From NCBI RefSeq assembly GCF_007747215.1, contig NZ_CP036273.1, forward strand, positions 6,928,322 to 6,992,321: 64,000 bases of DNA, in the 5' to 3' direction. A model generated the notes under the pieces. It did not search any database, was not told the DNA's origin, and worked only from the letters and a program-made list of their open reading frames with translations. Position numbers and translations under genes: made by a program. The stretch is from Urbifossiella limnaea (GTDB lineage Bacteria > Planctomycetota > Planctomycetia > Gemmatales > Gemmataceae). Shown here in pieces: positions 35,546-61,365 of the stretch (within the stretch, counting starts at the first letter, position 1; each line of letters opens with the position of its first letter).

Positions 35546-35616
35546 TGCGTCGCCCCGCGCGAGCGTTACTGTCCACGCCGGTTAACGACCCCCGAGACAC
35601 CCGCGAGGAGGACTGC

Positions 35617-39409: not shown

Positions 39410-39427
39410 CCGCCACCCCACCTCCCC

Positions 39428-41071: not shown

Positions 41072-41221
41072 CGCCGGCCCTCATCACCCCACACCCCGAC
41101 GATCGACCGGCCGCGCGGCGGAGGCGACGTGGGCACCCCCCGGTGCTCCGGCCGCCCCGCGCTGCCCGCCGCCCCGCCGTGCCCACGTCGCCCGCCTCGC
41201 CGGCCGGGGAGGAGCGCACCC

Positions 41222-41761: not shown

Positions 41762-41798
41762 CGCCCCGATCGCGTATTTACCCGTCCAGGAGGAATCC

Positions 41799-42098: not shown

Positions 42099-42173
42099 CC
42101 CGCAATCCAGACCCGCACCCGGAACCCGCCCTCACCGGCGGGGCCGTCCGGGGTGCGCCCCGAGGAGGAGCCC

Positions 42174-42914: not shown

Positions 42915-44971
42915 CCGACCCGAGCCTCGTCCCCGCCGTGCCCGCCGACCTCCTGGACGCCGTCGCCGCCGAGGCGCCGGCCCCGGCCGCCCCGCCCCCG
43001 CCGGCAGGCGCCCCGCTCGTCCCACCGTCGTCGGGAGGGACGACGTACACGTCGCGGCTGCTGGTGGACCGGTGGCTGGCCGCTCGCGGGGTCGGGTTCC
43101 GGGTCAAGCCGGAGCCGGACGCCCGCGGGCGGACGGTGTACGTCTTGAAGGAGTGCCCGTTCGACCCGAGCCACGCCGACCCGGACGCGTGCGTCATGCA
43201 GGCCCCGGACGGGCGGCTGTCGGCCCACTGCTTCCACAACGGGTGCCGGGGGCACGGGTGGCAGGCGTTCAAGGCCGCCCTCGGCCCGCCCGACCCGGGC
43301 CACTACGACCCGCCCCTCGCCGCGCGGAAGCCGGGCGGCAAGCAGCGGCGTCGGCCGGCCGCCCGGCCGCCGGCCGGCGGGCCGGCCCCGCCCGGCGCGG
43401 CCTCGCCCGACGCGACACCACCTGCCGGTGGAGCACCGCCCGAGGGCGTACCGCCCGCGGCAGAACCGCCGATCGAAGGCCCACCCACCGACCGCGGAAC
43501 TCCGGACGGGCGGCCGCCCCGCCGGGTCGTTCACATCGACCCCGCGCTCCCGGTGGCGCTGACGATGGCCGAGGTCACCGACACCCTCGTGGCCGCCCGC
43601 GACTGCTACCGCCGGGCCGGCCAGCTCGTCCGCATCGCCGGCGCCGACATCGGCCCCGTCCTGTCCGCCGCCGAGCTCGCCGGCCTCCTCAACCACCACG
43701 CCGAGGTCGTCGTCGCCGCCGCCGACGGGGAGGAGTACCGGCCCCTCCCGGCCGCCTACGCCAACACCTGGCTCAACCACCCCGGCGAGGCCGCCCGCCT
43801 CCCGCCCGTCACACTGTTCACCCTCGTCCCCGTCTACACCCCCGACTGGCGCCTCGCCCGCCCCGGGTACGACCCGGCCACCGGCATCTACTCCGCCGCC
43901 CTGCCGGTCGAGCCGCGAGCCGGCACCGCGCACCTCGACCGGCTCCTCGCCGAGTTCTGCTTCCGCGGCCCGGCCGACCGCACCAACTACGTCGGCGTCC
44001 TCGTGACCGCGCTCCTCGGCCCCCACTTCGTCGGGTCCAAGCCGGCCGTCCTGTTCACCGGCAACCAGCCCGGGCTCGGCAAGACCATCCTCGCCCAAGT
44101 GATCGCCATCCTCCGCGACGGCCGGCCGACCGAGACGGCCACGTACAACCCGAACGACGAGGAGTTCGAGAAGCGGCTCGGGGCGATCGTCCGCCGCGGG
44201 GCCACCACCATCGTGGTGGACAACGCCAAGGGCCGGGGCCGCGCCCCGCGGATCGATTCCGCGTGCCTGGAGCGGTCGATCACCGACGAGGTGCTGTCGT
44301 TCCGGCTCCTCGGGCACTCGCGTGAGATCCGGGCGGAGAACTCCCACCAGTTCTGCCTGACGGCGAACACCCCGGACGTGAGCCGGGACCTGGTGTCCCG
44401 GAGCGTGGTGGTCGGGCTGTACCACGAGGGGGACCCGGCCCGGCGGGCGTTCGACTTGCCCGACCCGGAGGGGTACGCCCTGGCCCACCGGGCCGAGTTG
44501 CTCGGCGAGCTGGCCGGGCTGGTCGAGCGGTGGCGCGCGGCCGGGTCCCCGCGGGCGGAGGCGCGGTCGCGGTTCAACAAGAAGGGGTGGGGGCCGGTGG
44601 TCGGCGGCATCCTCCGGCACGGCGGGTTTCCGGACTTTCTGGGGAACGCGGGGGCGGCGGCCGCCGAGTTGGACGACACCCGGCGGGAGTTCGCGGACCT
44701 GGTGGCGGCGCTGGCGGACCACCCGCAGGGGACGTGGACGGCGGCCGAGCTGGCGGACCTGGCCGCCCGGCTGCGGCTGTTCGGGGCGGACGCGGGGAAG
44801 GAATCGGGGCGGGCGGTGGCGACGCGGGTCGGCATCCTGGCGGGGCGGTTCGTGGGCGAGTCGTTCCCCCTGGACGACGGCCGGCGGGCGGAGTTCCAGC
44901 GGGTGCCGGACCGGAAGGGGAACCTATACCGGGTGGCCGTCCACGATCCCGAGGACGGCCGTGGCGATTGA
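42911..44971 (+). CDS. Replicative helicase-like NTPase with zinc-finger N-terminus
   Basis: 686 residues. The N-terminal part has Cys/His pairs (LKECPFDPSHADPDACVMQA, LSAHCFHNGCRGHGWQAFKA) like those of phage primase-helicases. A Pro/Ala-rich linker (about 145-195) follows. The NTPase region has Walker A AVLFTGNQPGLGKTILAQVI (K391), Walker B-like TTIVVDNAKG, and a sensor-1-like HQFCLTANTPDVSRDLVSRS, as in superfamily 3/D5-type helicases. The C-terminus (FADLVAALADHPQGTWTAAE) is a winged-helix-like tail. With the coupled primase and the iteron region at 46166 it makes a replication module. Confidence 0.8.
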   Translation: MTDPSLVPAVPADLLDAVAAEAPAPAAPPPPAGAPLVPPSSGGTTYTSRLLVDRWLAARGVGFRVKPEPDARGRTVYVLKECPFDPSHADPDACVMQAPDGRLSAHCFHNGCRGHGWQAFKAALGPPDPGHYDPPLAARKPGGKQRRRPAARPPAGGPAPPGAASPDATPPAGGAPPEGVPPAAEPPIEGPPTDRGTPDGRPPRRVVHIDPALPVALTMAEVTDTLVAARDCYRRAGQLVRIAGADIGPVLSAAELAGLLNHHAEVVVAAADGEEYRPLPAAYANTWLNHPGEAARLPPVTLFTLVPVYTPDWRLARPGYDPATGIYSAALPVEPRAGTAHLDRLLAEFCFRGPADRTNYVGVLVTALLGPHFVGSKPAVLFTGNQPGLGKTILAQVIAILRDGRPTETATYNPNDEEFEKRLGAIVRRGATTIVVDNAKGRGRAPRIDSACLERSITDEVLSFRLLGHSREIRAENSHQFCLTANTPDVSRDLVSRSVVVGLYHEGDPARRAFDLPDPEGYALAHRAELLGELAGLVERWRAAGSPRAEARSRFNKKGWGPVVGGILRHGGFPDFLGNAGAAAAELDDTRREFADLVAALADHPQGTWTAAELADLAARLRLFGADAGKESGRAVATRVGILAGRFVGESFPLDDGRRAEFQRVPDRKGNLYRVAVHDPEDGRGD

Positions 44972-44998
44972 CGACCGACGGGCAACTTGCCCCCGGCA

Positions 44999-46057
44999 TC
45001 ACGGCCGGAACTTCTCGAAGGCCGTGCCGTTGAACCGGTACGCACCGCCGTTGTGCGTCCCGAGCCACACGACGCCCCGGTTGTCCCGGTACACGGCGAA
45101 CACCTCGACCGGGGTGTCCCCGTCCTTGATGGGGTAGTGGACCTTCCGCTTCCCGTCGTACTGGAACGCGCCCGCCCGCAGCGCCGCCGTCCACAACTTG
45201 CCGGCCCCGTCTTCGACGATCGACATGCCCTCGACAATGGTCCCTTCCGCGCGCGGCTGGAGCCGGCCGATGTCGGCGACCGCCTGGAAGCCGGTGAGCG
45301 AGCGGTGCCCGCTGTAGGTGAACCAGAAGTTGCCGTTCCGGTCCTCGAGGACGGACCGGACCGGCGCCTCCACGAGGGTGCGGTCCGTGAGCCACTCGAA
45401 CGACGTCCCGTCGTACCGGCACACGCCGACGGACGTGCACCCGAACCACACGCGGCCCTTGCTGTCCCGAACGACGCAGTACACGTCGTACGGGTTGTAG
45501 ACCGCGTTCGGGAACTTCGAGCGGGGCATCCTCTCGAAGTGCTCGTCGCCGAGCTTCGTCCGCGGGAACTCCAGCCGGTGGAGCGCCCGGCCGTCGTACC
45601 GGAAGACTACCCCCGCGTCCGGCGCCCCCACGAACCACAGGTCGTCCGGCCGGAGTTTCCACCCCGCCGGGTCGGCCGTCGCCGGGGCGGACAGGGTCGA
45701 GAACGCCCGCCCGTCGAACCGGCTGATGCCCGCGTAGGTGGTGAAGTAGACGTTCCCGGCCTTGTCCTCCTGGACCCCCCGGATCTGGTTGCTGACCAGC
45801 CCGCCCGTCGTCGTGAAGTTGACCAGGGTCTTCCCGTCGTACCGGTACACGCCCCGGTCGTTGCTCCCGAACCAGTAGTCTCCGCTCTTGGCGTGGAACA
45901 CGTACATCACGCTCCGGCCCAACTCCGCGACGACTTCGCCCCTGGCGGCGGGGGCCTTCTCGGTCGCCGGCCGGTCCTGACCGGCAGCACCTGCGACGAC
46001 CGCGGCGACGAGGGCCACGGCCGCCGACGCGCGAAGTCCGTTGGTGAACAGGCCCAT
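44999..46057 (-). CDS. Exported beta-propeller protein (two-component-regulator propeller type)
   Basis: 352 residues from ATG 46057; an upstream Met adds 13 residues before the signal peptide. The signal peptide is GLRASAAVALVAAVVAGAAG. The rest consists of about seven propeller strands of the Reg_prop kind (SGDYWFGSNDRGVYRYDGKT, KAGNVYFTTYAGISRFDGRA, KGRVWFGCTSVGVCRYDGTS, NGNFWFTYSGHRS, RGVVWLGTHNGGAYRFNGTA). These are usually sensor parts of hybrid kinases; here there is no kinase domain, so a free periplasmic or surface propeller is likely. It is on the opposite strand inside the mobile region and is probably cargo. Confidence 0.8.
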   Translation of the reverse strand: MGLFTNGLRASAAVALVAAVVAGAAGQDRPATEKAPAARGEVVAELGRSVMYVFHAKSGDYWFGSNDRGVYRYDGKTLVNFTTTGGLVSNQIRGVQEDKAGNVYFTTYAGISRFDGRAFSTLSAPATADPAGWKLRPDDLWFVGAPDAGVVFRYDGRALHRLEFPRTKLGDEHFERMPRSKFPNAVYNPYDVYCVVRDSKGRVWFGCTSVGVCRYDGTSFEWLTDRTLVEAPVRSVLEDRNGNFWFTYSGHRSLTGFQAVADIGRLQPRAEGTIVEGMSIVEDGAGKLWTAALRAGAFQYDGKRKVHYPIKDGDTPVEVFAVYRDNRGVVWLGTHNGGAYRFNGTAFEKFRP

Positions 46058-46165
46058 CTCTTCCTCCACGGTCGTCGGGCCGGATACGCTTCGCACCGCC
46101 GGCGAAGGTGCGCCCTGTACGTGAGAACCGCCACCGGGGTTCTGTCCCCCGGGCCCGGCGCCACC

Positions 46166-46511
46166 TGCCGAACCTCGGGGCGGTTGCCGAACCTCTGCCG
46201 AACCTCTGAAATCAGAGGTTCGGCACCTTTAACCACCACACCCGCATGTCCTTGCGTCGTTTTGCCGAACCTGCCAAACCTCTAACGGTAAGCACCCTTC
46301 ACGCACGCGTGCGCCCGGGCGCGTGCGCGCGCCCGCGTATGTACCGACTTACCTGTTAAGGTTCGGCAGGTTCGGCAACTCGTCGCAAGATGTTGTGGGT
46401 CTGCATGTTAAGTGTGCCGAACCTCTGAAATCAGAGGTTCGGCAAGGTTCGGCAAGGTTCGGCACCGAGTCATAACTCGTTGCGAGATTGCAAGTTAAGT
46501 GTGCCGAACCT
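46166..46511. repeat. Iteron array: 13 copies of TGCCGAACCT, possible replication origin
   Basis: Plus-strand copies start at 46166, 46185, 46196, 46263, 46272 (one mismatch), 46415 and 46502. Minus-strand copies occupy 46216-46225, 46359-46368, 46368-46377, 46435-46444, 46445-46454 and 46455-46464. Two identical 30-bp palindromes (46196-46225 and 46415-46444) are made of two facing copies. An alternating purine-pyrimidine stretch (about 46300-46345) lies in the middle, with AT-richer segments beside it. Nearby replication genes favour an origin; an operator for 46663 is the alternative. Confidence 0.75.
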
Positions 46512-46662
46512 CTGAAACGCCTTGGTTTCTAGGTGTTTTCGTCAGCCGCCACCGGTCAGTTACCCGCGCGTGAACGACACACTCGAGGCCGTCCGTCGCT
46601 TTCTCGACCGACTGCGTATTTCCCGGGTACGGGATGCTCCGCACGTTGCGAGGGGGTGGCCG

Positions 46663-47913
46663 ATGGACGTGGAGATGTGGCCGGTCGGGAGGCTGAAGCC
46701 GTACCCGCAGAACCCCCGGCACAACGACGCCGGGGTGGACGCCGTCGCGGCGTCGCTCAAGGAGTTCGGGTTCCGCCAGCCGATCGTCGTGGACGAGGAC
46801 GACGTGGTGGTCGTCGGCCACACGCGACTCAAGGGGGCGTTGAAGCTCGGGCTCGCCGAGGTGCCGGTCCACGTCGCCCGCGGCCTCACCCCCGAGCAGG
46901 TCCGGGCGTACCGGATCGCCGACAACCAGACCGCGACGCTGTCCGCCTGGGACGACGGGCTGCTCGCCCAGGAACTTGCGGTGCTCCAGGCGGCCGACTT
47001 CGACCTCGGCCTCACCGGGTTCGCCGAGGACGACCTGCTGGCGCTGCTCGCCGACCCGCCCGCGGCGGCGACCGGCGACCCGGACGACGTGCCCGAGCCG
47101 CCGGCCGTGCCGGTCACCCGGCCCGGCGACCTGTGGGCCGTCGGCCGCCACCGCCTCCTCTGCGGTGACGCGACGAAGCCCGCCGACGTAGCCCGGGTGC
47201 TGGGCGGCGAGCCGGCCGACGTGCTGCTGACGGACCCGCCGTACAACGTCGCCTACGAGGGCGGCACCGCCGACCGCCTGACGATCGCCAACGACGACCT
47301 GTCCGACGACGACTTCCAGCAGTTCCTCGTCTCGGCCCTCTCGGCGGCCCGCTCGCACCTCCGCCCCGGCGGCGGGTTCTACGTGTGGCACGCCGACACC
47401 TACGGGCTGTCCGTCCGCCGGGCTGCGGCCGAGGCCGGGCTCCGCGTGCGGCAGTGCCTGGTGTGGGTGAAGCCTTCGCTCGTGCTGGGCCGGCAGGACT
47501 ACCAGTGGCGCCACGAGCCGTGCCTGTACGGGTGGGCCGACGGCGCCCCCCACACCTGGCTCGGCGGCCGCGCCCAGACGACCGTGCTCGAGTTCGACAA
47601 GCCGGCCCGGAACGCCGAGCACCCCACCATGAAGCCGGTCGCGCTGTTCGGGGCGCTGCTCGCCAACAGCTGCCCGGCCGGCGGGGTGGTCCTCGACCCC
47701 TTCGGCGGGAGCGGCACCACCCTCGTCGCCGCCGAGCAGGCCGGGCGGGCCGCGCGGCTGATCGAGGTCGACCCGCGGTACGGCGACGTGGTGCTGGCCC
47801 GGGCCGCGGCGACGTTCGGCGACGCCGTACCGGTGCGGCTGCTCGAAGGCGACGCGGAAGTGGCCTACGCCGACGTGGTGGCCCGCCGCCGGGCCGATGC
47901 GGCCGCGGCGTAG
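46663..47913 (+). CDS. ParB-domain DNA methyltransferase
   Basis: 416 residues from ATG 46663 (GAGGGGGTGG upstream). Residues 5-110 are a ParB N-terminal domain (VGRLKPYPQNPRHNDAGVDA, FGFRQPIVVDEDDVVVVGHT, RAYRIADNQTATL). The methyltransferase follows with the catalytic motif VLLTDPPYNVAYEGG (D191) before the SAM-binding motif VVLDPFGGSGTTLVAAEQAG (D345), the beta-class order for N4-cytosine or N6-adenine. Such ParB-methylases are common in phages and elements and mark the DNA as self. No matching restriction gene is adjacent. The iteron array lies directly upstream and may control it. Confidence 0.9.
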   Translation: MDVEMWPVGRLKPYPQNPRHNDAGVDAVAASLKEFGFRQPIVVDEDDVVVVGHTRLKGALKLGLAEVPVHVARGLTPEQVRAYRIADNQTATLSAWDDGLLAQELAVLQAADFDLGLTGFAEDDLLALLADPPAAATGDPDDVPEPPAVPVTRPGDLWAVGRHRLLCGDATKPADVARVLGGEPADVLLTDPPYNVAYEGGTADRLTIANDDLSDDDFQQFLVSALSAARSHLRPGGGFYVWHADTYGLSVRRAAAEAGLRVRQCLVWVKPSLVLGRQDYQWRHEPCLYGWADGAPHTWLGGRAQTTVLEFDKPARNAEHPTMKPVALFGALLANSCPAGGVVLDPFGGSGTTLVAAEQAGRAARLIEVDPRYGDVVLARAAATFGDAVPVRLLEGDAEVAYADVVARRRADAAAA

Positions 47914-47937
47914 CCGGTACGATCGGGGGGCCTGCCG

Positions 47938-48138
47938 ATGCGGCTCAGGAGGCGCGTGGGGGCGGTCGCGACGGCTCTGATAGGGACGGCCGGCTGCCCC
48001 GGCCGCGGGGTGGTGAACCGGCTCGCCGCCGACGAGGACGCCGACCCGCCACCCTGCCCCGCGTGCGGCGGGTGCCACGTGCTGGTGGTCGAGGAGGTCG
48101 TGGTCTGGGCTGCCGAACCCGTCGGCGGCCTGGTGTAG
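47938..48138 (+). CDS. Small protein with a Cys-Cys-His knuckle
   Basis: 66 residues from ATG 47938. The middle (DPPPCPACGGCHVLVVEEVV) has a CxxCxxCH metal knuckle. The N-terminus (VGAVATALIGTAGCPGRGVV) could be a weak signal or lipobox-like stretch, but this is uncertain. It lies between the methylase and the terminase-like gene. No family recognised. Confidence 0.5.
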   Translation: MRLRRRVGAVATALIGTAGCPGRGVVNRLAADEDADPPPCPACGGCHVLVVEEVVVWAAEPVGGLV

Positions 48139-48212
48139 GGGGCGGGAACCCGCCCGGACCCTGCAACAGGGCTGCAAAAGTCTGCAACTCGGGGGCGTGC
48201 GGAGGGGGTGCC

Positions 48213-48611
48213 GTGGTCGCGCAGCGGAAGAGGAACGATGACGCGGTGGTGCTGGCCCTCGCGTGCGGGGCGACGGTCGAGGCTGCCGCGAAGCAGGGCG
48301 GAGTGTCCGAGCGTACGGTCTACACCCGGCTCCGCGACCCCGAGTTCCAGAAGCGGATCAAGGAGGCCCGGACCGACCTCGTCCGGCGGTCCGCAGGCCT
48401 CCTGTCGGCCGCATCCGGCGAGGCCGTCCGCACCCTGCTGGCGCTGATGAAGGAGTCGGCCCCTCCGGCGACGCGGCTGGGGGCGGCGAAGGCGGTGCTG
48501 GAGGTCGGGCTGAAGATCCGGGAGCTGGCCGACCTGGAGGCCGAGCTGCGGGACCTGGAGGAGAAGGTCAAGGCCCTCGGCCCGCCGGACGGCGGGGGGA
48601 GGCGGTGGTGA
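48213..48611 (+). CDS. HTH protein resembling phage terminase small subunit
   Basis: 132 residues from GTG 48213 (GGAGGGGG upstream). The N-terminal HTH reads LALACGATVEAAAKQGGVSE with RTVYTRLRDPEFQKRIKEAR, followed by a helical core (SGEAVRTLLALMKESAPPAT, RLGAAKAVLEVGLKIRELAD) and a C-terminal coiled coil (LEAELRDLEEKVKAL). This layout is that of small HTH proteins annotated as terminase small subunits (phBC6A51 type). No large subunit or portal gene follows, so it may serve a satellite that redirects packaging, or may simply be a regulator. Confidence 0.6.
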   Translation: MVAQRKRNDDAVVLALACGATVEAAAKQGGVSERTVYTRLRDPEFQKRIKEARTDLVRRSAGLLSAASGEAVRTLLALMKESAPPATRLGAAKAVLEVGLKIRELADLEAELRDLEEKVKALGPPDGGGRRW

Positions 48612-48886
48612 ACATCCGCGGGCGGGTGGCGCGGCTGCGGGCCGGGCTGGCCGGGCGGGGCGGGGACGACCTGGCCCACATCGTGGTGTGGGTGCCGGCC
48701 GGGGGCGACCCGGACGGCCGGCCGCCGGGGGTGTACCGGACGGGCGGCGTCCTCGACGTGGTGTACGAGGGGGACGGGCCCGACCCGGTCCTGCGGACTC
48801 GGGTGATGGAGCAGGCAGCGCCGGCGGCACTGGAGATTGTACTCGGGCGGGAGGTCGTCGCGGCACCGACGGAGGAGCCCGCGTGA
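48608..48886 (+). CDS. Small element protein with VVYEGDGPDPV motif
   Basis: 92 residues; GTG 48608 overlaps the upstream stop (a GTG at 48605 is also possible). The segment GGVLDVVYEGDGPDPVLRTR is closely echoed in the 60-residue protein at 54936 (VTTVVYDGDGPDPVVLAGLE). The start (NIRGRVARLRAGLAGRGGDD) is basic. No known domain. It is part of a chain of overlapping short genes. Confidence 0.65.
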   Translation: MNIRGRVARLRAGLAGRGGDDLAHIVVWVPAGGDPDGRPPGVYRTGGVLDVVYEGDGPDPVLRTRVMEQAAPAALEIVLGREVVAAPTEEPA

Positions 48887-49350
48887 GCACCCACGCCCTC
48901 GGCCGCCGCCTCGCCGACCTCGCCCGCCGCCAAGCCGCGGCCGCCGCGCGGCACGCGGCTGTCAACGCCGCGGTGGACACGGAGCACGAGAAGCGGGTGG
49001 CGTTCCTGATGATGGTGCCGGAGGACCTGCGGATGGCGGTGGGGATCGCCCTGAGCGACCCCGACGGCGACGACGCCCTCCACTCGTGGGCGCTGTGGCC
49101 GTTCGCCCGGTGGGCCGTCGCGCCAGCCGGGTTCCAGTTCCCGCGGGCGCTAGTCGAGTGGCTGCTGGCCCGGCCGCACGCCTGGTTCCTCGGCCACCAC
49201 TGCGAGCGGTGCGGGCTCGGGGTGCCGCTCCTGAGCACCGACTCCCGCGACCCGAGCCCGCCGCCGTCGATCGTCGTCTTCCCGACGTGCCCGGCCTGCG
49301 GCGGGGTCACCTCCCACGCCGCCAACTGGTGGACGGAGCCGCCGCCATGA
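48883..49350 (+). CDS. Small element protein with two Cys pairs
   Basis: 155 residues from GTG 48883, overlapping the stop before it. The N-terminal half is helical (LADLARRQAAAAARHAAVNA, FLMMVPEDLRMAVGIALSDP). The C-terminal third has HHCERCGLGVPLL and FPTCPACGGVTSHAANWWT, two CxxC pairs that probably bind one zinc. Unknown function; possibly nucleic-acid binding. Confidence 0.65.
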   Translation: MSTHALGRRLADLARRQAAAAARHAAVNAAVDTEHEKRVAFLMMVPEDLRMAVGIALSDPDGDDALHSWALWPFARWAVAPAGFQFPRALVEWLLARPHAWFLGHHCERCGLGVPLLSTDSRDPSPPPSIVVFPTCPACGGVTSHAANWWTEPPP

Positions 49351-49562
49351 CGTTGCACGACCGGGTGGCCAGGCTGACCCGGCGGCTGCCGGGGCGGCGG
49401 CCGAAGGGGGTGCCGACCGACCCGGTGGCGCTGCTGGCCGGGCTGGCGGCCGGGACGGTGTCGATGGCCGACTTCGACCGGGCGGACGCCGATCAGATGA
49501 ACGCGGTGGCGTACGCGGCGGCGCTGCTGATCGCCCGGACCGGCGTGGGAGGGTCGCGATGA
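49347..49562 (+). CDS. Small element protein
   Basis: 71 residues; the ATG overlaps the stop of the preceding gene. The start (TLHDRVARLTRRLPGRRPKG) is basic and resembles the starts of its neighbours (NIRGRVARLRAGLAG at 48608 and TRGRLARLGRAVF at 49559), suggesting a shared N-terminal helix. The rest is helical (VALLAGLAAGTVSMADFDRA, MNAVAYAAALLIART). No function known. Confidence 0.6.
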   Translation: MTLHDRVARLTRRLPGRRPKGVPTDPVALLAGLAAGTVSMADFDRADADQMNAVAYAAALLIARTGVGGSR

Positions 49563-49837
49563 CCCGCGGGCGGCTGGCCCGTCTCGGCCGGGCGGTGTTC
49601 CTGCCGACGACCTGCACTGCCGCCGCGCCCGTGCGGCTGCGGTCCCCCGCCGACGTGCTGGCCCTGCTGGAGGCCGAGACCGCCCGCGTCCGCGCCGACT
49701 CTGCTGCCGACCCGGTCGCCCGGGCGCGGGCCGTCGGCACCCTCGCCCGCGTCGCGCTCAGTGCGATTGAGGCTGACCAGATGGCTGCTCGGGTGGCCGC
49801 GCTGGAGGCCGTCCTGGCCCGGAGGAGGCCCGCGTGA
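49559..49837 (+). CDS. Small element protein, helical
   Basis: 92 residues; the ATG overlaps the upstream stop and the stop overlaps the next GTG. The C-terminal 65 residues (LALLEAETARVRADSAADPV, AIEADQMAARVAALEAVLAR) form likely amphipathic helices. The basic RGRLARLGRAVF start is shared with neighbours. No function known. Confidence 0.6.
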   Translation: MTRGRLARLGRAVFLPTTCTAAAPVRLRSPADVLALLEAETARVRADSAADPVARARAVGTLARVALSAIEADQMAARVAALEAVLARRRPA

Positions 49838-50415
49838 CCGCCGACCGCCTTGCCCGCCACTACGACTTGCTCCGGCCCGAGGAGCGGCTGGCGCTGATGC
49901 TGGCGGCGAGCGGGCGCGGCGACGACGTGGAGCACGAGCGGCTCGTCGCGGCCGCGCCCCGCCTGACCGTGGCCGTGCCCGACACGTTTCCCCGGGCGAT
50001 GGCGTTCCGCGAGGTCCTCGACCGGCACCGGGCCGAGCGGCTCGAACTCGCCGCCCGGTTCTTCCAGACGAAGCGCCTCGCGGAGGACTTCGACGAGGGG
50101 CCGGGCGGGCGGATGGGGAACGTCGCCAGGGCCTACGGCTACCTCCTCCTGGCCGCCCGGGACGGGTGGGCCGCGTTCTGCGAACGGGAGATGCTGCCGT
50201 GCGGCGGGCTGGAGGTGGCGCTGGTCGGCGGGGACGTGCTCCGGATGGCCGAGGACGAGGCTGAAGGGGACGCCGTCACCGCCGAAGAGGTGGCCGGGAT
50301 GATCGCCGCCCGGGGCGGGCCGGCGGGCGCGGTGAAGGCGGCGGCGTCGGTGGCGGCGGAACTGGCGGAGGTGTTCGAGGAGAGGCTGGTGTGGTGGGAG
50401 GGCGAAGGCCGATGA
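49834..50415 (+). CDS. Element protein, helical, unknown role
   Basis: 193 residues from GTG 49834, overlapping the previous stop. It is almost all alpha-helical and acidic (YDLLRPEERLALMLAASGRG, YGYLLLAARDGWAAFCEREM, MAEDEAEGDAVTAEEVAGMI). It is the last gene of the overlapping plus-strand chain. A short reading start follows (50412, ATGACGGTGCGCGGTCGGCT) but soon runs out. The chain layout is typical of phages and satellites; the function is unknown. Confidence 0.65.
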   Translation: MTADRLARHYDLLRPEERLALMLAASGRGDDVEHERLVAAAPRLTVAVPDTFPRAMAFREVLDRHRAERLELAARFFQTKRLAEDFDEGPGGRMGNVARAYGYLLLAARDGWAAFCEREMLPCGGLEVALVGGDVLRMAEDEAEGDAVTAEEVAGMIAARGGPAGAVKAAASVAAELAEVFEERLVWWEGEGR

Positions 50416-50500
50416 CGGTGCGCGGTCGGCTAGAGCGCCGCAAGGCTGACAACCTACCGCACGCGCTTCACACCGACTCCGCCCGACTGCCGGCGTGTGC

Positions 50501-51772
50501 CTACCCTTCCACGAACGTCCGCCGTGCCCGGTCGACGACCCACAGCCCCCCGCGGATGATCGGGATGCACCCGAACTGCGCCCACTCCCACCACTGCCGC
50601 GACAGCAGCTCGTGCCACTCCACCCCGATCAGGTCTTCGACGGCCCCGTCCACACGGGCCACGGCGGTGAACAGCCCGGCTACCCCCTTCAGGGTGAGCG
50701 CGGCCCCGGCCGTCGCGGCTACCGTCCACGCCTTCGTTGCCGTCGGCCGGACCGACAGGTAGACCTCGCCGCGTAACACCGCCCCCGGCGCCACTACGTC
50801 GTAGTCGAGCCGAACCAACTCGGTGAACAGCGGGTTGTCGACGACCGTCACGACGAACGGCCACTGCCGGGCGGTCTTCGCCGCCGGCTCGACCTCGACC
50901 CGGCCGGGGGCCGGGTAGAGCCGCACCGCCGTCGCCTGCGGGTGCGACGGCTCGACCACCAAGTGGTACCGGGCCTTGTTCCCCGACAGCGGGAACACCC
51001 CGCGGTCCGCGAGGATGCCGCCCGCCTTCCCCTCGCGGTCCACGGTCACCCGGTCGGTGGTGAGGAGACGCGGCTCGAGGAACCGGAACGGCGGGGGCGC
51101 GTCGGGGTGCGACCCCTCGTCGGCCGGGACCGCCCGCATCCGCCGGACGCCGACCGGCTCCCCGTCGATCACGGCCGAGCAGTCGAGCGCGACCTCGGGG
51201 CCGGTGACCACCAGGTCGAACCGGATCTCCCCGCCGGCGGGCAACCGCCGCTCCCGCCGGCGGAGCGGGCCGGCGCGAACGGCGTCGGCCGGGCCGACCG
51301 TGATCTCGACATCCGCCAGATCGGTTGCGGGGGTGGCGTTCGTGAACACCGCCTCCACCTTCACCGCGTTGCCGTACCCGCACACCCGGCTGAGGCGCAC
51401 GTCGAGCGCTCGCTCCAGCGACGGCACGACCCGGAACGGGTGCGCCGGGAGGCGGACGACCTCGCGGTCGCGCGCCTCGCCGCCGACCGGGTTCGCCTGG
51501 AGGATCAGGTCGGCGGTGTCGGCCGGGCCGGCGGCCCGGTACTTGATGCCGACCGCCAGAGTGACCGCCTCGCCGGGGTTGAGGACGAGGTCCTGGGTGA
51601 ACAGCTCGGTGCTCACCGCCGCCCGCCCCACGGAGGTGACCCCGCCGGCCGGCAGCCGCACCGCCCGCGGCGCCGCGACCGCCAGCACGACCGTGAACCG
51701 AACCCACGCCCACTCGCCCACCGGGACCGCGTCCGGCGGCGCGACCAACTCGACCGAGATCGGGGACGACAC
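50501..51772 (-). CDS. Beta-rich protein with C-terminal hydrophobic segment, third gene of ATPase operon
   Basis: 423 residues from GTG at 51772 (GGAGGCGG upstream on the minus strand); a longer in-frame reading upstream is only a shadow of the ATPase gene. Most of it looks like repeated Ig-like or sandwich strands (ISVELVAPPDAVPVGEWAWV, AVTLAVGIKYRAAGPADTAD, GGEIRFDLVVTGPEVALDCS, VDREGKAGGILADRGVFPLS). The C-terminal 100 residues include a hydrophobic stretch (TVAATAGAALTLKGVAGLFT) and a Trp-rich end (LLSRQWWEWAQFGCIPIIRG) that might lie at or in a membrane. No signal peptide is seen. It follows the ATPase gene by 38 bp. Family unknown. Confidence 0.7.
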   Translation of the reverse strand: MSSPISVELVAPPDAVPVGEWAWVRFTVVLAVAAPRAVRLPAGGVTSVGRAAVSTELFTQDLVLNPGEAVTLAVGIKYRAAGPADTADLILQANPVGGEARDREVVRLPAHPFRVVPSLERALDVRLSRVCGYGNAVKVEAVFTNATPATDLADVEITVGPADAVRAGPLRRRERRLPAGGEIRFDLVVTGPEVALDCSAVIDGEPVGVRRMRAVPADEGSHPDAPPPFRFLEPRLLTTDRVTVDREGKAGGILADRGVFPLSGNKARYHLVVEPSHPQATAVRLYPAPGRVEVEPAAKTARQWPFVVTVVDNPLFTELVRLDYDVVAPGAVLRGEVYLSVRPTATKAWTVAATAGAALTLKGVAGLFTAVARVDGAVEDLIGVEWHELLSRQWWEWAQFGCIPIIRGGLWVVDRARRTFVEG

Positions 51773-51810
51773 GGACCGCCTCCGCTGGGGTTCCGCGCCC
51801 GCCGGGCGCG

Positions 51811-53817
51811 TCAGTCCTGGCCCGCCGGCACCGGCCCGGCCGCGCCGGCGAGGGCGTCGAGCCGCACCCGGGCGAACCGGAGCAGCTTCCCGAGGTACGT
51901 CTTGCCGACCTCGGCGCGGACCAGGGCGTCGAGCGCCGCCCGCTGCGCGGGCTCGGCGTAGCGGTCGGGCCGGTCGCACACCGCGGTCAGCGCCGCGAAC
52001 GCCGACTCCGCCTCCACCGGGCACACGTCGGCGGTGATTTGGTCGTGGTAGCGGTCGTCGACGCCGTCGAGGGGGTCCGCGATCGGAAGCGGGCGGACCA
52101 GCCACAGGAAGGTGCGGGCCTTCGTCCGGTTCGCCAGCACTTCCTTGACGAGCCCGGGCAAGCCGTTCCTGTAGGTCCGCCCCAACCGGGCGAGGTGGAC
52201 GGTGATCCCCGGAGCCGTCCCGGGGCGGGTGACGGACAGACGTACCACCGGCGTGGCGTCCAGTTTCATCGACTCGTCGTGCTGGACCTCGACGCCGGCC
52301 TCCGCCGCCACGACCGGGCCGATAACCGCGAGCAGCTGCCGGAGGGTGTCGAGGTGGTCGGTCGTGTACTGCCACTCGGTCGCGGCCGCCTCCGCCGCCT
52401 TCCGCACGTTCCGCTCGAACAGGTAGTCGATGAGCGGGTCCACCGCGACCGTCCGGACCCGCGCGTGGAACGCCGCGTCGAGCGCCAGCAGGGCGTCGCG
52501 CACGGCCTGGTTGCCGGCCGTCGCCACCACCTCGTCGGCCGTGAACGGCAGGTACGGCTCGTCCAGCTGGGCGTAGCGGTCCCGCAGGACCGGGTCGTCG
52601 CGGACCCACGCGGCGACGCGCTCGCGGTACAGCCCCTTCACCTGCTCGGGGGTCGGCAGCGAGAGGGTGAACCGCTCGTCCATGAGGATGCGGTCGCGGA
52701 ACTGCCGCTCCATGGTCGCGTGCAGCCGGGTCTTCAGCCCGAGCGTCATGGTGAACAGCACGACCACGTTCGGGAGCGTGTTGTACAGCTCGCTCAGGTG
52801 GGCGAAGAACTTGGCCCAGTCGCCCTCGGCGTCGAACAACTCGTTCCGCCCCTCGGCCTGGTCGAACGTGAGCAGCAGCACCCGCGGCGGGCACTCGCCC
52901 GGCTTCCCCTCCAGCTGCCGCGACACCTCCGGTGAGAACAGGTGGGCGAGCAGCTTCACGGCCTCGAACCGGGCGTACTCGCGGTCCGGCTGCTCCTTCG
53001 CCCCGAGGCGGCGGGCGAAGTAGTCCGGGTCGCCCCGGCCGCGGAACCAGTGGAGCACCCGCTCGCGCGTCCCGACCCCGTCCTCCGGGCGGTCGGGGAA
53101 CAGGTACAGGAGCAGCACCCGCAAGGCGAAGCGGTGCATCAGGTTCGCCCGCTCGGCGAGGAACCGGTCGCACACCGCGTTGCCGAACGCGGCGAAGTCG
53201 AAGTGCGCGAACACCGCCGGGTCGCGGGCGTCGGCCAGGGCCTTGAGCCGCTCGTGGCTCGGCCGCCGCCACCGCCCCCACGCCCGGCCGAGCCACCACC
53301 CGCCGGGCCGGGCGGCCGCCGCCTTCCACGACATCGGGTTGCTCAGCAGGTGCTCGACGGCCCGGAACCCGATCGCCCGGACCCGCTGCAGGAGGAGGTG
53401 GTCGTCGTTCGGGCCGGGGGCGGTGACCGCCTCGATCACCCAGTCGAGGAGCCGGGCCTGGAACTCGTCGATCGACCAGTGGTTCGAGCCGCCGACGAAC
53501 ACGTGCCCGAGTTCGTCCGCGGCCGCGGCCGCCTGGAAGGTGCGGAGGAGGTGTGTCTTGCCGACGCCGGCGGCGCCGGACAGGAGCACGACCTGCGACT
53601 GCTTCCGCCCGGCGCGGACGGCGGTGATGGTGTCGCGGACGTGCGCCCGCGCCTCCGCGTGCATCCCGGCCACGTCTGCCCCGGGCGCCCCGCCGGCGGC
53701 GGTGCTCACCCGCTGGTCGAACGGGGAAACGTTGGCGTCGGGGTCGGCCCGCGGCATCCGCCGCTTGAACTCGCGGAGCACCTCGAGCCGGGCCAGGCCG
53801 GGGTCGGTGGGCGACAT
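51811..53817 (-). CDS. AAA/STAND-like P-loop ATPase, second gene of operon
   Basis: 668 residues. Walker A is VVLLSGAAGVGKTHLLRTFQ (K87), and a Walker B-like strand is VLLLTFDQAEGRNELFDAEG (Asp followed by Gln rather than Glu). A sensor-like segment is NVVVLFTMTLGLKTRLHATM, followed by RFTLSLPTPEQVKGLYRERV. The order matches Orc/Cdc6- or STAND-type AAA ATPases found in anti-phage systems. The C-terminal 200 residues (VVRLSVTRPGTAPGITVHLA, RTFLWLVRPLPIADPLDGVD) look like a separate domain with no match I know. It begins 4 bp after the winged-helix gene. Confidence 0.78.
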   Translation of the reverse strand: MSPTDPGLARLEVLREFKRRMPRADPDANVSPFDQRVSTAAGGAPGADVAGMHAEARAHVRDTITAVRAGRKQSQVVLLSGAAGVGKTHLLRTFQAAAAADELGHVFVGGSNHWSIDEFQARLLDWVIEAVTAPGPNDDHLLLQRVRAIGFRAVEHLLSNPMSWKAAAARPGGWWLGRAWGRWRRPSHERLKALADARDPAVFAHFDFAAFGNAVCDRFLAERANLMHRFALRVLLLYLFPDRPEDGVGTRERVLHWFRGRGDPDYFARRLGAKEQPDREYARFEAVKLLAHLFSPEVSRQLEGKPGECPPRVLLLTFDQAEGRNELFDAEGDWAKFFAHLSELYNTLPNVVVLFTMTLGLKTRLHATMERQFRDRILMDERFTLSLPTPEQVKGLYRERVAAWVRDDPVLRDRYAQLDEPYLPFTADEVVATAGNQAVRDALLALDAAFHARVRTVAVDPLIDYLFERNVRKAAEAAATEWQYTTDHLDTLRQLLAVIGPVVAAEAGVEVQHDESMKLDATPVVRLSVTRPGTAPGITVHLARLGRTYRNGLPGLVKEVLANRTKARTFLWLVRPLPIADPLDGVDDRYHDQITADVCPVEAESAFAALTAVCDRPDRYAEPAQRAALDALVRAEVGKTYLGKLLRFARVRLDALAGAAGPVPAGQD

Positions 53818-53821
53818 GGGC

Positions 53822-54790
53822 TCAGTTCCAGCGGACGAAGTAGTACAGCCGGTCGTTCCGGTGGATGGCGAGGTGCGGCTCGCTCGCCCCGCGAACCTCG
53901 TTGAGCACGTGCAGTTGGACCGCCCGCGCCTCGCTCAGCCGCCACAACTCGTGGTGGAAATCCTCGACCGTCAGTCCCGGCAGGCGCTTCGCCGCCTCGT
54001 GGTACAGCCGCGGGAGCTCGACGAGGCGGTCGCGGAACTCGACGAACAGGCACAGGTGCTCGTAGGCGAGTTTCAGCACCGCCGGCAGATCGACGGCCGG
54101 CGCCGGGGGCGGGGTTACCGGGGCGGGAGGTGCCGCCGTGACCACCGGGGCGGGACGTGGTGTGGGGGCCGACTCGAGCTTGCTCCTGAGGATCGTGAAT
54201 AAGTCGTCGAGCGGAGCGACCCCGAGGGCGGTGACCTTCTGGGCGGCCTTCACGAGTGCGTCGAACGGCTTCTTGCCCGGGTCGGTCTCGTACCACTTCG
54301 GCGGTGGCGGCGCGGTCCGGGCGTACCCCTTCCCGCGGCGGAACAATTGCCCGGTCGCCTGCATCTCGGCGAGCAGCCCGTCGAACGCGGCCGTCGCCTC
54401 GGGGGTCGCCTTCTTGCCGCCGGGGCGCCCGAGTTGCTTATCCGTCACCACCTCGTCGGTCCCGAGGAGCCGGACCTTTTCGCGGAGCGCGTCGGCGACG
54501 ACCTCCGCCGCCGTCTTCGGCCGGGTGTGCCAGAACCGGGGTTTCCCCTTGGCCGAGGTCGCGGGGTGGGCGAAGGCGGTGCCTCCGCCCACCTCGGCGG
54601 TCACGGCCGCCTCGATGTCCGAGTCGGAGTGCCCCTTCTTCCCGCCGATCGCGACTCCCTGGGCCTTCAGCGTTTTCTTGATGTCAGCGATTGCGACCGG
54701 CTGTTGTGCGGTCTTGATGACCCGGGCCACGATCTCTGGAAAAGTGAGCGACGCCACAGCCGTCGTGGGAGTCGCGGCAGCTTCGGTCAT
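53822..54790 (-). CDS. Winged-helix protein, first gene of ATPase operon
   Basis: 322 residues from ATG 54790, with CGGAG upstream and a promoter at 54816-54843. The first 150 residues look like two winged helices (FPEIVARVIKTAQQPVAIAD with IKKTLKAQGVAIGG; and AFDGLLAEMQATGQLFRRGK). A Pro/Ala linker (about 210-235) leads to a helical C-terminal domain (LKLAYEHLCLFVEFRDRLVE, FHHELWRLSEARAVQLHVLN, EPHLAIHRNDRLYYFVRWN). It could be the DNA- or phage-sensing part or a regulator of the ATPase. I know no named family. Confidence 0.72.
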   Translation of the reverse strand: MTEAAATPTTAVASLTFPEIVARVIKTAQQPVAIADIKKTLKAQGVAIGGKKGHSDSDIEAAVTAEVGGGTAFAHPATSAKGKPRFWHTRPKTAAEVVADALREKVRLLGTDEVVTDKQLGRPGGKKATPEATAAFDGLLAEMQATGQLFRRGKGYARTAPPPPKWYETDPGKKPFDALVKAAQKVTALGVAPLDDLFTILRSKLESAPTPRPAPVVTAAPPAPVTPPPAPAVDLPAVLKLAYEHLCLFVEFRDRLVELPRLYHEAAKRLPGLTVEDFHHELWRLSEARAVQLHVLNEVRGASEPHLAIHRNDRLYYFVRWN

Positions 54791-54815
54791 GACAAACTCC
54801 GAATGTCGTGCCGCT

Positions 54816-54843
54816 AGCATAGATGAGCGACGGTCCGCGACAA
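54816..54843 (-). promoter_or_regulatory. Promoter of the three-gene ATPase operon
   Basis: On the minus strand: TTGTCG (complement of 54838-54843), a 16-bp spacer and TATGCT (complement of 54816-54821), 25 bases before the ATG at 54790. The TTGTCG -35 matches that of the tRNA promoter. Confidence 0.6.
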
Positions 54844-54935
54844 CTATTCCGACGGGGCGGCTATCGCAGGCCGTCAGGGGCCTGTCGCCGCCCGGCCGCC
54901 TCGACCTCGTCGTCGCCGTCCCGGTCGGCTGCGGC

Positions 54936-55266: not shown

Positions 55267-57762
55267 ATGGGACAGGCTTCCCACCCCAGTAAGGCTCACC
55301 TCGACGCCCAGGCCATTTCACGGTTCAAGAAGGAACGTGTCCTCCTCCAACTGACCGAGGATCAGTTCCGCGACCTCGTCGTGCGGCCGCTCATGCTCCG
55401 CATGGGGCTCGAGGACGGTCGCGATCTGTGCGGACCCGACGAAGAAGGCAAGGACTGTGTCTTCTTCAAGGCCGACCCGATCCGCAAGCGGATCATGTAC
55501 GCGGTCCAGACGAAGCGCGGGCCGATCAACATGACCCGGAAGGCCACGGAGAACGTGACCGAGGCGCAGGCGCAGCTCCGCACCGCCCTCGAGACGAGCG
55601 TCAGCCTCGTCATGCCCCGCGAGAAGCGGAAACCCGACTGCGTGATCCTGTGCGCGAGCGGGAAAATCAACAAGGCCGCGCGGGAGCACATCCAGGCCGA
55701 GATCAACGACACCCGGCTGGCCTTCATGGGGGCCGACGAGGTCATCAACGGGCTGGACGAATACTACCCGGAGTACTGGTACGGCATCGAGGCCGACAAG
55801 TTCCCCTACTACCAGCGGCTCAAGGAGGAGCTCGCGCGGCAGAGCGAGACGGTGTCGATCGTCGAGCAGTCCGACGCGGGGCTGGCCGTGTGCCCGATCA
55901 CGGACGAGTCGTTCGTCCAGCTCTACCTGAACCGGATGACGACCGTTGAGAAGAAGGTCGGGCGGGACACCGAAACCGTCCCCGACCTCGAGGAGATCCC
56001 GATCTACGGCGTCCTCAAGGGGAAGCCCAAACTCGTCATGATCACCGGCGACGCCGGCAGCGGGAAGTCCACCTCGCTCCGGCGGCTGGCCTACTCGGTC
56101 GCGACCAAGGCCCTCAAGGACGAGTCGGCGTCGATGGTCCCCGTGATGATGCGGTGTACGGAGGTGGAGAAGTCGCCGCACCGGCTGATCGAGCAGGCGG
56201 CGGACGCGACCGCGCGGCTCACCCCCGACCGCGGCGCGAGCTTCAACGCGACCGACCTGGCCGCCGGGCTCGTCGCGATCCTCCTCGACGCGCTCGACGA
56301 GGTGTCCAGCGACGAGGGCCGGGCCGGGGTGATCCGGAAGGTCAAGGAGTTCCACCAGACCCACCCGACCTGTTTGGTGGTGATCACCTCCCGGCGGACG
56401 CCGTTCGTCAAGGAAACCAGCGAGCTAACCGGGTTTACCACCTACCAGATCAGCTCGTTCAGCATGGAGCAGGCCGAGCGGCTGGTCACGACGATCGTCC
56501 GGGACAAGTCGCTCCCGGCGGTGGACATGAACGAGACGCTGCGGCGGATCCGGGACGTCCACGGGGTCGAGCTCAACCCGCTTCTGGTGACCATCTTCGT
56601 CGCGATCTCGGACTACAACCGGCAGGACATCCCCGCGAACATCACCGAGCTGTTCAAGAAGTACACCGAGATGATGCTCGGCCGGTGGGACAAGCAGAAG
56701 GGGCTGGCGCAGCAGATCCACGCCCCCATCAAAGACTTCCTGCTGCGGTCGCTCGCCTACCTCATGCACACGCGGGGCGACATCTCGATCCCGGTCGCCG
56801 AGTGCCGCGCCCTGTTCGAGCGGGAGTTGGCGAGCCGGGACCACCGGGCGGACGTGGAGGTCCTGTTCCACGAGATCGTCTACCGGTCGGGCCTCTTGCG
56901 GATCGTGGGGGAGGACATCGAGTTCCGCCACATGCTGCTGCAGGAGTTCTTCGCCGGGCGGGCGATCCCGTCGGCCGAGCACCTGACCGGGCTCGTCTCC
57001 CAGCCGTGGTGGACGAAGGCGATCGTGTTCTACTTCGGCGAGAATCCGGACAAGTGCGACTCGATCAACGGTCTGCTCGGGCGCATCCCGACGGCCGACC
57101 CGGTTGGGGTGTACACCGCGGCGACCGCCGTCGGCCTGGCCACCCAGGCGTGCTACCTGTCGAAGGTGGACGACAAGCTCGTCTCGTTCCGGTGGGTCCT
57201 GCGCACGCTGGCCGAGGTCAAGGACCGGTTCATCGCGCAAGGCGGCGGCGACCCGGAGAAGCGGTTCCCCGAGTTGATGGTCTACCTCGGCTACTACCTG
57301 CACGCCCGGGACGCGGTCGCGTCCCACCTGATGGCCGACCTGGCCGCTTCCCTGTTGGAGGCAAAGCCGCAAACGGACGAGGAGCAGGCGGTCAACGAGA
57401 CGGCCCTCTTCTGGGCCCTCGTCGGGCTGATCGAGGTCGGCCAACTCCCGGCCGTGGAGGACCTCCTCAAGAAGTTCCGGCCGACCGACCGGCGGCACTT
57501 CTTGGGGATTCATATGGGCTGTTACCTCCTGGCGAACATCCGCATCACCACGGCGAGTACCAAGGACGTGGCCCGTCGGATCTGTAACAAGCTGACGACC
57601 AAGGTTCGGCCGTACGCGTACCAGATCATCAGTGACCTGAAGTCCATGCTGATCGAGGTCAGGAGGGGCAAGCTGGAGATTTTCCACGACACGCCGCCAC
57701 GGGAGCTCGCACTACCCGGCCCCGAGGTAGAGGACGAGCCGGAGGATAAAGCGCCGGGGTAG
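55267..57762 (+). CDS. NACHT NTPase with N-terminal Mrr-like nuclease domain (defence protein)
   Basis: 831 residues from ATG 55267. The N-terminal 190 resemble a PD-(D/E)xK restriction fold of the Mrr type (RMGLEDGRDLCGPDEEGKDC with D63, then IMYAVQTKRG with the QxK pair Q81/K83). The NACHT part has Walker A VMITGDAGSGKSTSLRRLAY (K267) and the hallmark VAILLDALDEVSSDEG (D341, D344, E345), followed by VVITSRRTPF and a winged-helix-like segment (ELFKKYTEMMLGRW, FRHMLLQEFFAGRAI). The C-terminal 300 residues are helical, TPR- or HEAT-like, and are the probable sensor. Bacterial NACHT proteins of this type stop phages, often by cutting DNA on sensing a phage protein (established for the group). 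It is alone, with no partner gene. Confidence 0.88.
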   Translation: MGQASHPSKAHLDAQAISRFKKERVLLQLTEDQFRDLVVRPLMLRMGLEDGRDLCGPDEEGKDCVFFKADPIRKRIMYAVQTKRGPINMTRKATENVTEAQAQLRTALETSVSLVMPREKRKPDCVILCASGKINKAAREHIQAEINDTRLAFMGADEVINGLDEYYPEYWYGIEADKFPYYQRLKEELARQSETVSIVEQSDAGLAVCPITDESFVQLYLNRMTTVEKKVGRDTETVPDLEEIPIYGVLKGKPKLVMITGDAGSGKSTSLRRLAYSVATKALKDESASMVPVMMRCTEVEKSPHRLIEQAADATARLTPDRGASFNATDLAAGLVAILLDALDEVSSDEGRAGVIRKVKEFHQTHPTCLVVITSRRTPFVKETSELTGFTTYQISSFSMEQAERLVTTIVRDKSLPAVDMNETLRRIRDVHGVELNPLLVTIFVAISDYNRQDIPANITELFKKYTEMMLGRWDKQKGLAQQIHAPIKDFLLRSLAYLMHTRGDISIPVAECRALFERELASRDHRADVEVLFHEIVYRSGLLRIVGEDIEFRHMLLQEFFAGRAIPSAEHLTGLVSQPWWTKAIVFYFGENPDKCDSINGLLGRIPTADPVGVYTAATAVGLATQACYLSKVDDKLVSFRWVLRTLAEVKDRFIAQGGGDPEKRFPELMVYLGYYLHARDAVASHLMADLAASLLEAKPQTDEEQAVNETALFWALVGLIEVGQLPAVEDLLKKFRPTDRRHFLGIHMGCYLLANIRITTASTKDVARRICNKLTTKVRPYAYQIISDLKSMLIEVRRGKLEIFHDTPPRELALPGPEVEDEPEDKAPG

Positions 57763-59868: not shown

Positions 59869-61365
59869 CAGGCCATTCACGGTGTGAGACTCACGGATTC
59901 CGGCTGACTTTCGCCTGACGGGTCTTCTTCCCCTCGTCGAGCAACCGGGCCGTGGAAACATGTGGGCTCTTGTCCTTGATCCGTCGGGTCGCCGTCCTCG
60001 TCGGCTTCCGGGGCGGCGCTTTCTTGATCCTCCCAAGGTCGACCTTGCCCGCCCACTCGCGGAGGTGGCCGGCCAACTCCGGGCTGGGCATCGGACCGAA
60101 CGCCTCCCATTCCGACGCGGGCAGGGCGATCATCATCCCCGCGTACACCATCGCCCACTCCAGCGCCAGGTAATACCCCGACACCTCCTCCTGCACCTTC
60201 TTCTCACCATGCACCGCCCGCAGGGCCGCCTTCAGTACGGCCAGCACGTTGTACGCGGCCACCGCCACGCAGAACCCGAACAGCGCGGCCCTGGGGTACC
60301 CCAGGGTGTTCACCTCACAGTTCAAGGCGACTGTCAACTCGTGGAAGGCCCCCTCGATCTTCCACCGCTTGAGGTAGATCTCGGCCACCTTCTTGGCCGG
60401 CACCTTCGCCGGCAGGTTGGTCAGGATCTCCACCTCCGCGTCCCCGTCCGCGGTCGGCGCCCGCAGCCGCACCCGCACCTGCCGCAGGCGCACCAACCGC
60501 GCCCCACCCCAGCAGACCCAGACCCGCCGCTCGCCCACCCAGCCCCGGTCCGTCGCGACCTCGGCCCCGTACCCGGCTTCGGCCTCGACGCTCAGGTTCC
60601 CGTGGCGTCGGATGACGACGTAGGCCCGCCGGGCGGCCACCTCACACAGGAACTCCGCCGTGCAGAAGTTGCGGTCCGCGACCCACACGTCCCGCTCCCG
60701 CACCAGCGGCACAATCTGGTCGATCAGCGCCCGCTCCTGGGTGTGGGCGTCCTCGCACGGGACGATGTCGGTGACCAGCATCAGGGCCGGGTCGAGCACG
60801 ACCAAACTCTGCCCGGGCAAGGGGCCGGCGGTGTGCCCCCGGGTGACGCCCAGCCGCCGCTGGGTGGCGGCCAGGTGGTTGCCGTCGAGGACCCGCACCC
60901 GGTAGCCCGGCAGCAGGCTCTTGCACCCCCCGCCCAGCGCGGTGATCAGCCCCTCGCACCGGCCCGACACGTGCGCGACCAGCCCCGCGGACACGCCCGT
61001 CTCGATGTTCCGGAGCTTGTCGTAGACGCACTTGAGGGTGACCGGGACGCGGTCCCGCAGGTGCCGGTAGGCGGCCTGGACGTGGAGGGCCTTGCCGCCG
61101 ACCACCAGGGTCATCAGATCGACCGTCGTGGAGAACAGCAACTCCCGGGTGTACCCGCGCTCGGCGGTCCGGTCGAACAGCGCGTCGAGGGCCGAGGCCG
61201 AGAGGGCGTGCTCGATGGTCGCCCGGGACATCACGCTGAGCGGGCTCTCCTCTAGGAACCGCTCGAAGACCCCACCGAACAGCATGGGCGCGCCCTCTCC
61301 CTGGCTTGGCCAAGTCCCTGCCAGCGGACGGCTTACGACCGGGATGCGTCACCGTGAATGGCCTG
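59869..61365. mobile_element. Intact IS4-family insertion sequence, 1497 bp
   Basis: The ends are perfect 16-bp inverted repeats: CAGGCCATTCACGGTG at 59869-59884 and its complement at 61350-61365. An 11-bp direct repeat (GTCAGAGAGGG) flanks both ends, the size usual for the IS4 family. One full transposase gene fills it. The perfect repeats point to a recent insertion. Confidence 0.95.
59891..61285 (-). CDS. IS4-family transposase
   Basis: 464 residues. DDE residues: YRVRVLDGNHLAATQRRLG (Asp), RDVWVADRNFCTAEFLCEVA (Asp) and VAEIYLKRWKIEGAFHELTV (Glu in the Y-x2-RWxIE-x2-F context of the IS4 group). The frame is intact and fills the element. The C-terminus is very basic (RIKKAPPRKPTRTATRRIKD). 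It is not closely similar to the other transposase of this window (11905), which is of a different IS4-like type. Confidence 0.93.
   Translation of the reverse strand: MLFGGVFERFLEESPLSVMSRATIEHALSASALDALFDRTAERGYTRELLFSTTVDLMTLVVGGKALHVQAAYRHLRDRVPVTLKCVYDKLRNIETGVSAGLVAHVSGRCEGLITALGGGCKSLLPGYRVRVLDGNHLAATQRRLGVTRGHTAGPLPGQSLVVLDPALMLVTDIVPCEDAHTQERALIDQIVPLVRERDVWVADRNFCTAEFLCEVAARRAYVVIRRHGNLSVEAEAGYGAEVATDRGWVGERRVWVCWGGARLVRLRQVRVRLRAPTADGDAEVEILTNLPAKVPAKKVAEIYLKRWKIEGAFHELTVALNCEVNTLGYPRAALFGFCVAVAAYNVLAVLKAALRAVHGEKKVQEEVSGYYLALEWAMVYAGMMIALPASEWEAFGPMPSPELAGHLREWAGKVDLGRIKKAPPRKPTRTATRRIKDKSPHVSTARLLDEGKKTRQAKVSRNP

Follow-up and report, generated by a model that had tools for sequence, protein, structure and literature searches.

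Genes A, B and C of the window (the whole stretch of 64,000 nucleotides analysed here, taken from G000, the genome of Urbifossiella limnaea, a single contig of 7.8 Mb) form a compact operon, and this trio was shown to be a conserved, co-diverging unit that has been repeatedly gained and lost, mostly among Gemmataceae. It behaves as an accessory module that moves horizontally, and is built on an ATPase whose modelled fold is that of the Orc/Cdc6-type AAA+ proteins. The best reading of A-B-C is a variant of the Orc/Cdc6-multi-wHTH conflict systems in which an Ig-like protein, C, stands in third place. Defence is, in our judgement, the rather probable purpose of the module, although the neighbourhoods of its other copies are ordinary ones. 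The features of the window are collected in Table 1.

Table 1. Features of the operon, the cassette and the surrounding element in the window
Feature	Coordinates	Strand	Description	Basis
Gene A	53822-54790	minus	322 aa	ORF, homologue alignment
Gene B	51811-53817	minus	668 aa	ORF, Pfam AAA_16, invariant motifs, AF2 model
Gene C	50501-51772	minus	423 aa, GTG start	AF2 model; no known family
Inserted cassette	50441-54860		about 4.4 kb; ends accurate to about 20 bp	comparison with L094
Host integrative element backbone	35545-50429	plus		same gene order in G023 (L091) and G012 (L092)
Serine recombinase of element	36117-37706	plus		
686-aa gene of element	42911-44971	plus		
ParB-N6/N4 methylase of element backbone	46663-47913	plus		
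Small element genes	up to 50415	plus		
NACHT ATPase	55267-57762	plus	NACHT E=6.7e-11; N-terminal Mrr_cat E=0.0027, weak	

The operon and its three proteins

A, B and C are confirmed as real genes forming one operon. All three have coding-type codon composition and lie on the minus strand at 50501-54790, with 4 nt between the stop of A and the start of B and 38 nt between B and the start of C. The trio is far beyond chance because its gene order, with intergenic distances of -4 to 188 nt, is kept in eight other Gemmataceae loci with unrelated neighbourhoods. The first-pass annotation was thus right in describing a compact three-gene operon, and also in placing it on the strand opposite to the genes of the element and next to a NACHT gene. 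As for the promoter of its own that the first-pass annotation gave the operon, a sigma-70 scan found none, such a scan being uninformative in the G+C-rich G000.

B matched Pfam AAA_16 (E=1.3e-7, with a bit score just at the cut-off), and its AAA+ part occupies residues about 15-460 of the AlphaFold2 (AF2) model (mean pLDDT 81). The Walker A lysine (in GxxGxGK[ST]H), the Walker B motif FDQxEGR, which is unusual, and the arginines R376 and R440 do not vary among ten B homologues, and with these motifs conserved B is likely to be active as an ATPase; the two arginines presumably play the roles known from AAA+ proteins in general. The best PDB match of the B model was the Drosophila ORC-Cdc6 complex (Z 13.4, rmsd 3.3, 240 residues), with further matches to TnsC (Z 12.0), archaeal Cdc6/Orc1 (Z 11.8), MuB (Z 11.7), and BrxC (Z 10.8, 315 residues), and the top Foldseek matches were archaeal ORC2 and CDC6. 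Of the AAA/STAND-like ATPase that had been proposed, the P-loop ATPase therefore stands, but the modelled fold is that of Orc/Cdc6 and not that of a classical STAND receptor. NACHT and nSTAND profiles matched B weakly and in the P-loop region only, and the PADLOC Avs2 model matched it with E=1.4e-4 over 53 residues.

Residues 488-598 of B, within a domain at about 488-600, are modelled as a helix, three strands, a helix, and a strand. This order is typical of the restriction-endonuclease (REase) fold. Conserved acidic or catalytic residues were not found in this part of the homologue alignment, and we infer from the model that it is a non-catalytic REase-like domain. The C-terminal end of B consists of helices only in the model, with no obvious wHTH.

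A is predicted to be a multi-winged-helix DNA-binding protein. The alignment of 11 homologues gave an architecture of one to several N-terminal repeats, the number of which varies among homologues, a Pro-rich linker, and a conserved C-terminal domain that ends in YxF/YVxW. Searches of Pfam, PADLOC, NCBIfam, and PHROGs and sequence searches of the PDB returned nothing credible for A, and the winged helices named in the first-pass annotation are a prediction still. They are favoured by the repeats and by the alignment of A with the small partner genes of related ATPases: an A profile from which distant members had been left out matched such partner genes with E=1.6e-21 and 4e-5, the latter being the value for the small gene of G175 in a 12-protein set.

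The AF2 model of C (mean pLDDT 82) contains three Ig-like beta-sandwiches, which bears out the description of C as beta-rich, and a helical C-terminal tail with two moderately hydrophobic segments at about 353-371 and 395-413. Both segments lie at the same place in full-length homologues, but their mean hydropathy (1.48 and 1.45) is not above that of the column-shuffle control, so that the membrane link suggested earlier is no more than possible. No family for C was found in Pfam, PADLOC, NCBIfam, or PHROGs, where it had no P-loop, nuclease, toxin, or catalytic effector match, and sequence searches of the PDB returned nothing credible. Structure matches of C (ciliary central pair, alpha-2-macroglobulin-like, and methane monooxygenase proteins; Z up to 9.6) were rejected as a guide to its functional identity, these being common Ig-type sandwiches. 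The tail also bears on the idea of a membrane-acting abortive infection, in which A and B would only sense and C, acting as a pore or membrane effector, would kill or halt the cell. Alone among the three genes, C lacks a DNA-related prediction, and its hydrophobic segments recur, as this idea would have it, but with a tail hydropathy of only about 1.5, a model of low confidence at residues 361-390, and no toxin family matched by C, we regard it as doubtful.

Distribution and mobility of the cassette

A B homologue covering most of the protein was found in 10 of the 95 Gemmataceae genomes, one of them with a decayed copy (G024); matches with E about 1e-4 in family genomes, which covered the P-loop region only, were left out of this count. 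Apart from the decayed copy, the homologues are 40-52% identical to B. C and A evolve faster than B, the C homologues being 21-37% identical to the window copy, and the distance matrices of the three proteins are correlated (r=0.95 for B-C and r=0.87 for B-A; Mantel p=0.0002). Matches to C always lay beside B, except for fragments in G007 and G021, two genomes without a B match. Outside the family, one clear relative (G376, a small gene and an ATPase at which the contig ends) and one distant relative (G175) were found among 392 genomes across the phylum. Searches for B in phage, plasmid, and viral-contig collections and a single-sequence scan of genome contigs gave no match, while a profile scan of genome contigs gave seven loci, all in planctomycete MAGs matching family genomes already found. 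In named collections, the records that matched were planctomycete MAGs, for the most part labelled Gemmataceae or Gemmata.

The cassette survives in decayed or fragmentary form in G024 (L031, with in-frame stops), on contig C38 of G021, and on contig C9 of G007. G035 carries an ordinary trio and, on contig C480 (L032), a second, diverged one, whose B is 28-36% identical to the others and whose A has a different N-terminal part.

The trio of the window lies in a cassette inserted into an integrative element. The tail of this element occurs a second time in G000 (L094; contig C1, 3863000-3882900; 86-93% DNA identity in the main blocks), and there the sequences flanking the cassette (around 50435 and 54900 of the window) are about 43 bp apart, as against about 4.4 kb in the window. 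In G023 and G012 the element backbone lacks the cassette. Another occupied and empty pair is the interval from an MFS gene to an aminotransferase gene, which is 4516 bp long in G027, with the cassette, and 525 bp long in the congeneric G025. Furthermore, the B of G000 is 52% identical to that of a genome of another genus and 49% identical to that of its own genus-mate, whereas for a core gene, the spermidine-synthase-like one, G000 and this genus-mate share 75% identity. Empty sites together with a B that is closer to another genus than to a genus-mate are what one expects of a module that is accessory and moves horizontally. A third empty site, at a spermidine-synthase-like gene (G016 vs G019), is suggestive and was set aside, as the evidence for it is 43% identity at the end of a contig. 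Terminal inverted repeats were not seen by eye at the cassette borders, which share only an ambiguous sequence of 3-6 bp, and the IS DDE transposase gene at 59891-61285 is separate from the trio.

A small gene of the element is interrupted by the cassette. It is one of the genes for small paralogous proteins (M..RGRxxRL...) that the element carries in tandem runs, at 48605-50415 of the window and in L091 and L092. The slot adjoining the cassette is variable and holds the NACHT gene, which lies outside the cassette, in the window vs a 1060-aa AAA_16 ATPase gene in L094. Judging from its domain matches, the NACHT ATPase is likely to be a nuclease-NACHT defence protein. The cargo of L094 comprises a TPR protein and the 1060-aa ATPase, with a Cas3 gene (L094:621-2849) a few kb away, and beside a related element in G036 (L093:8786-16949) there are genes that, by eye, resemble AbiE-type and SIR2-type defence genes.

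Defence or another function

The strongest evidence against defence is that the other copies of the operon lie outside recognisable defence islands. Their nearest genes encode DUF1501, a protein kinase, an M48 peptidase, an MFS protein, ThiF, ScpB, an aminotransferase, and a spermidine-synthase-like protein, so that the enrichment near defence genes expected from the first-pass annotation was not borne out in the copies tested. When 53 neighbours were searched with PADLOC, none of the first 25 of 51 families matched more than four of them, and generic kinase models headed these families; the kinase matches were rejected as evidence of defence because such models fit any Ser/Thr kinase. What speaks for the candidate new defence system is the mobile and conserved ATPase operon itself, its NACHT neighbour, and the company kept by its distant relatives, namely nuclease/HerA, methyltransferase, and DUF262 genes.

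These ordinary neighbour genes, the near confinement of the trio to Gemmataceae, and the Ig-like domains of C, which are common in structural proteins, would also suit a lineage-specific cell function, such as chromosome organisation or membrane tethering in Gemmataceae. We consider this unlikely, since only 10 of 95 family genomes carry B, patchily within genera, and the patchiness, the broken or fragmentary copies in G024, G021, and G007, and the present/absent sites make up the pattern of an accessory gene. The patchy gain and loss, the decay in some genomes, and the contexts of the relatives favour a role in conflict over a housekeeping one. That the cassette is instead a selfish or element-maintenance module without immunity, helping the element to integrate or persist through a B like TnsC or a partition ATPase and an A serving as DNA-binding adaptor, seems quite improbable to us, for although TnsC and MuB rank high in the structural comparison with B and the window copy sits inside a serine-recombinase element, other copies lie between ordinary chromosomal genes with no recombinase or transposase recognised in their nearest flanks, two other genomes have the element backbone without the cassette, and the trio has no transposase-like partner.

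The more specific reading of A-B-C, as a mobile module directed against invaders with an Orc/Cdc6-type AAA+ ATPase at its base, is, in our opinion, about evenly poised. The first-pass annotation read the gene order as sensor, switch, and effector, an assignment of roles that is an inference. In the division of labour that we put forward tentatively, A would use its repeated winged helices to contact DNA that is invading or mobile, B would load or oligomerise on the A-bound DNA with ATP and serve as scaffold and switch, and C, recruited in place of a HerA/nuclease partner, would tether the complex to the membrane or disturb the membrane once activated. We would hesitate more to call A-B-C a previously undescribed immune system, in which an Orc/Cdc6 ring, brought onto foreign DNA by a multi-winged-helix reader, would signal to an Ig-like membrane protein or be held by it, and we think this rather unlikely; if true, the sensing of DNA would be linked to the membrane with no nuclease involved.

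Pairings of an Orc/Cdc6-type ATPase with winged-helix partners are a recurrent feature of BREX, Ssp, and capture systems, where functions for modifying, translocating, or cleaving DNA lie close by. A-B-C would extend these systems to Gemmataceae, and a stable relative in which such functions have given way to an Ig-like, possibly membrane-bound protein would set the core that senses and loads apart from its output. With three genes it is small enough for testing what the core does alone.

Comparison with known systems

No named system fits A-B-C, as had been stated from the outset: searches of the three proteins against PADLOC, Pfam, NCBIfam, and PHROGs gave no defence family and only P-loop matches, for B. 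The literature search found neither a described system of this composition nor a dedicated survey of defence in Gemmataceae. The BrxC/DUF499 ATPases of BREX share with B the ATPase core of the Orc/Cdc6 clade, but BrxC is about twice as long as B and has wHTH and coiled-coil parts (PMC12839542), and the A-B-C operon is without PglZ and without a methyltransferase, neither family being matched by A, B, or C and no BREX model of PADLOC matching them. STAND/Avs proteins resemble B in the P-loop region, but B has no fused effector and no C-terminal sensor repeats. TnsC and MuB share the AAA+ fold and, by analogy, the DNA-loading logic; unlike them, A-B-C has no transposase or TniQ-type partner, no transposase having been recognised in the trio or next to its homologous operons, and several copies lie between ordinary chromosomal genes.

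The A-B pair was shown by profile comparison to be distantly related to pairs that stand beside a gene for a nuclease-HerA/FtsK translocase. In G175 (L045:2630-10295), a distant A-like gene and a B-like ATPase gene are followed, in the same order, by a PD-(D/E)XK + HerA fusion (PADLOC mad8, E=3.5e-30). The G175 ATPase led to plasmid pPSE7367.01 of Pseudanabaena sp. PCC 7367 (L088), with a small gene, an ATPase, and PD-(D/E)XK + FtsK, and to further relatives in which the ATPase is fused to an exonuclease domain and lies beside methyltransferase or DUF262/DUF1524 genes. In a twelve-protein set, a B profile built without these relatives matched their ATPases with E values of 4e-16 to 4e-6 and the non-ATPases with 0.1 or worse; B is distant from the ATPases of the HerA-type loci, with 21% identity. 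The G175 operon is also adjoined by an AAA gene matching PADLOC IetA (E=8.7e-18).

Orc/CDC6-HerA/FtsK capture systems combine an Orc/CDC6 ATPase, an inactive REase, a wHTH protein, HerA/FtsK, and a nuclease; they lie in mobile neighbourhoods, a counter-invader role has been proposed for them, and their ATPase carries the inactive REase domain between the ATPase core and a C-terminal wHTH (Rakesh, Aravind and Krishnan 2024, PMC10853773). A-B-C resembles them in its Orc/Cdc6-type ATPase, one domain of which is probably REase-like and non-catalytic, in its fast-evolving small partner gene, predicted to be of the multi-wHTH type, and in its mobile neighbourhoods. It differs in that B has no obvious C-terminal wHTH and in that neither HerA/FtsK nor an active nuclease is present: C matched no P-loop family, there is no fourth operon gene, the next gene being the NACHT gene, and no nuclease family was matched by A, B, or C. 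Since HerA/FtsK and the nuclease define the capture class, we do not file A-B-C as a member. The trios of G175 and pPSE7367.01 nevertheless share with A-B-C the order of small gene, ATPase gene, and third gene; their ATPases are distant homologues of B, and the small gene of G175 is a distant homologue of A, whereas the third gene encodes a nuclease and DNA translocase in both and the Ig-like C in A-B-C.
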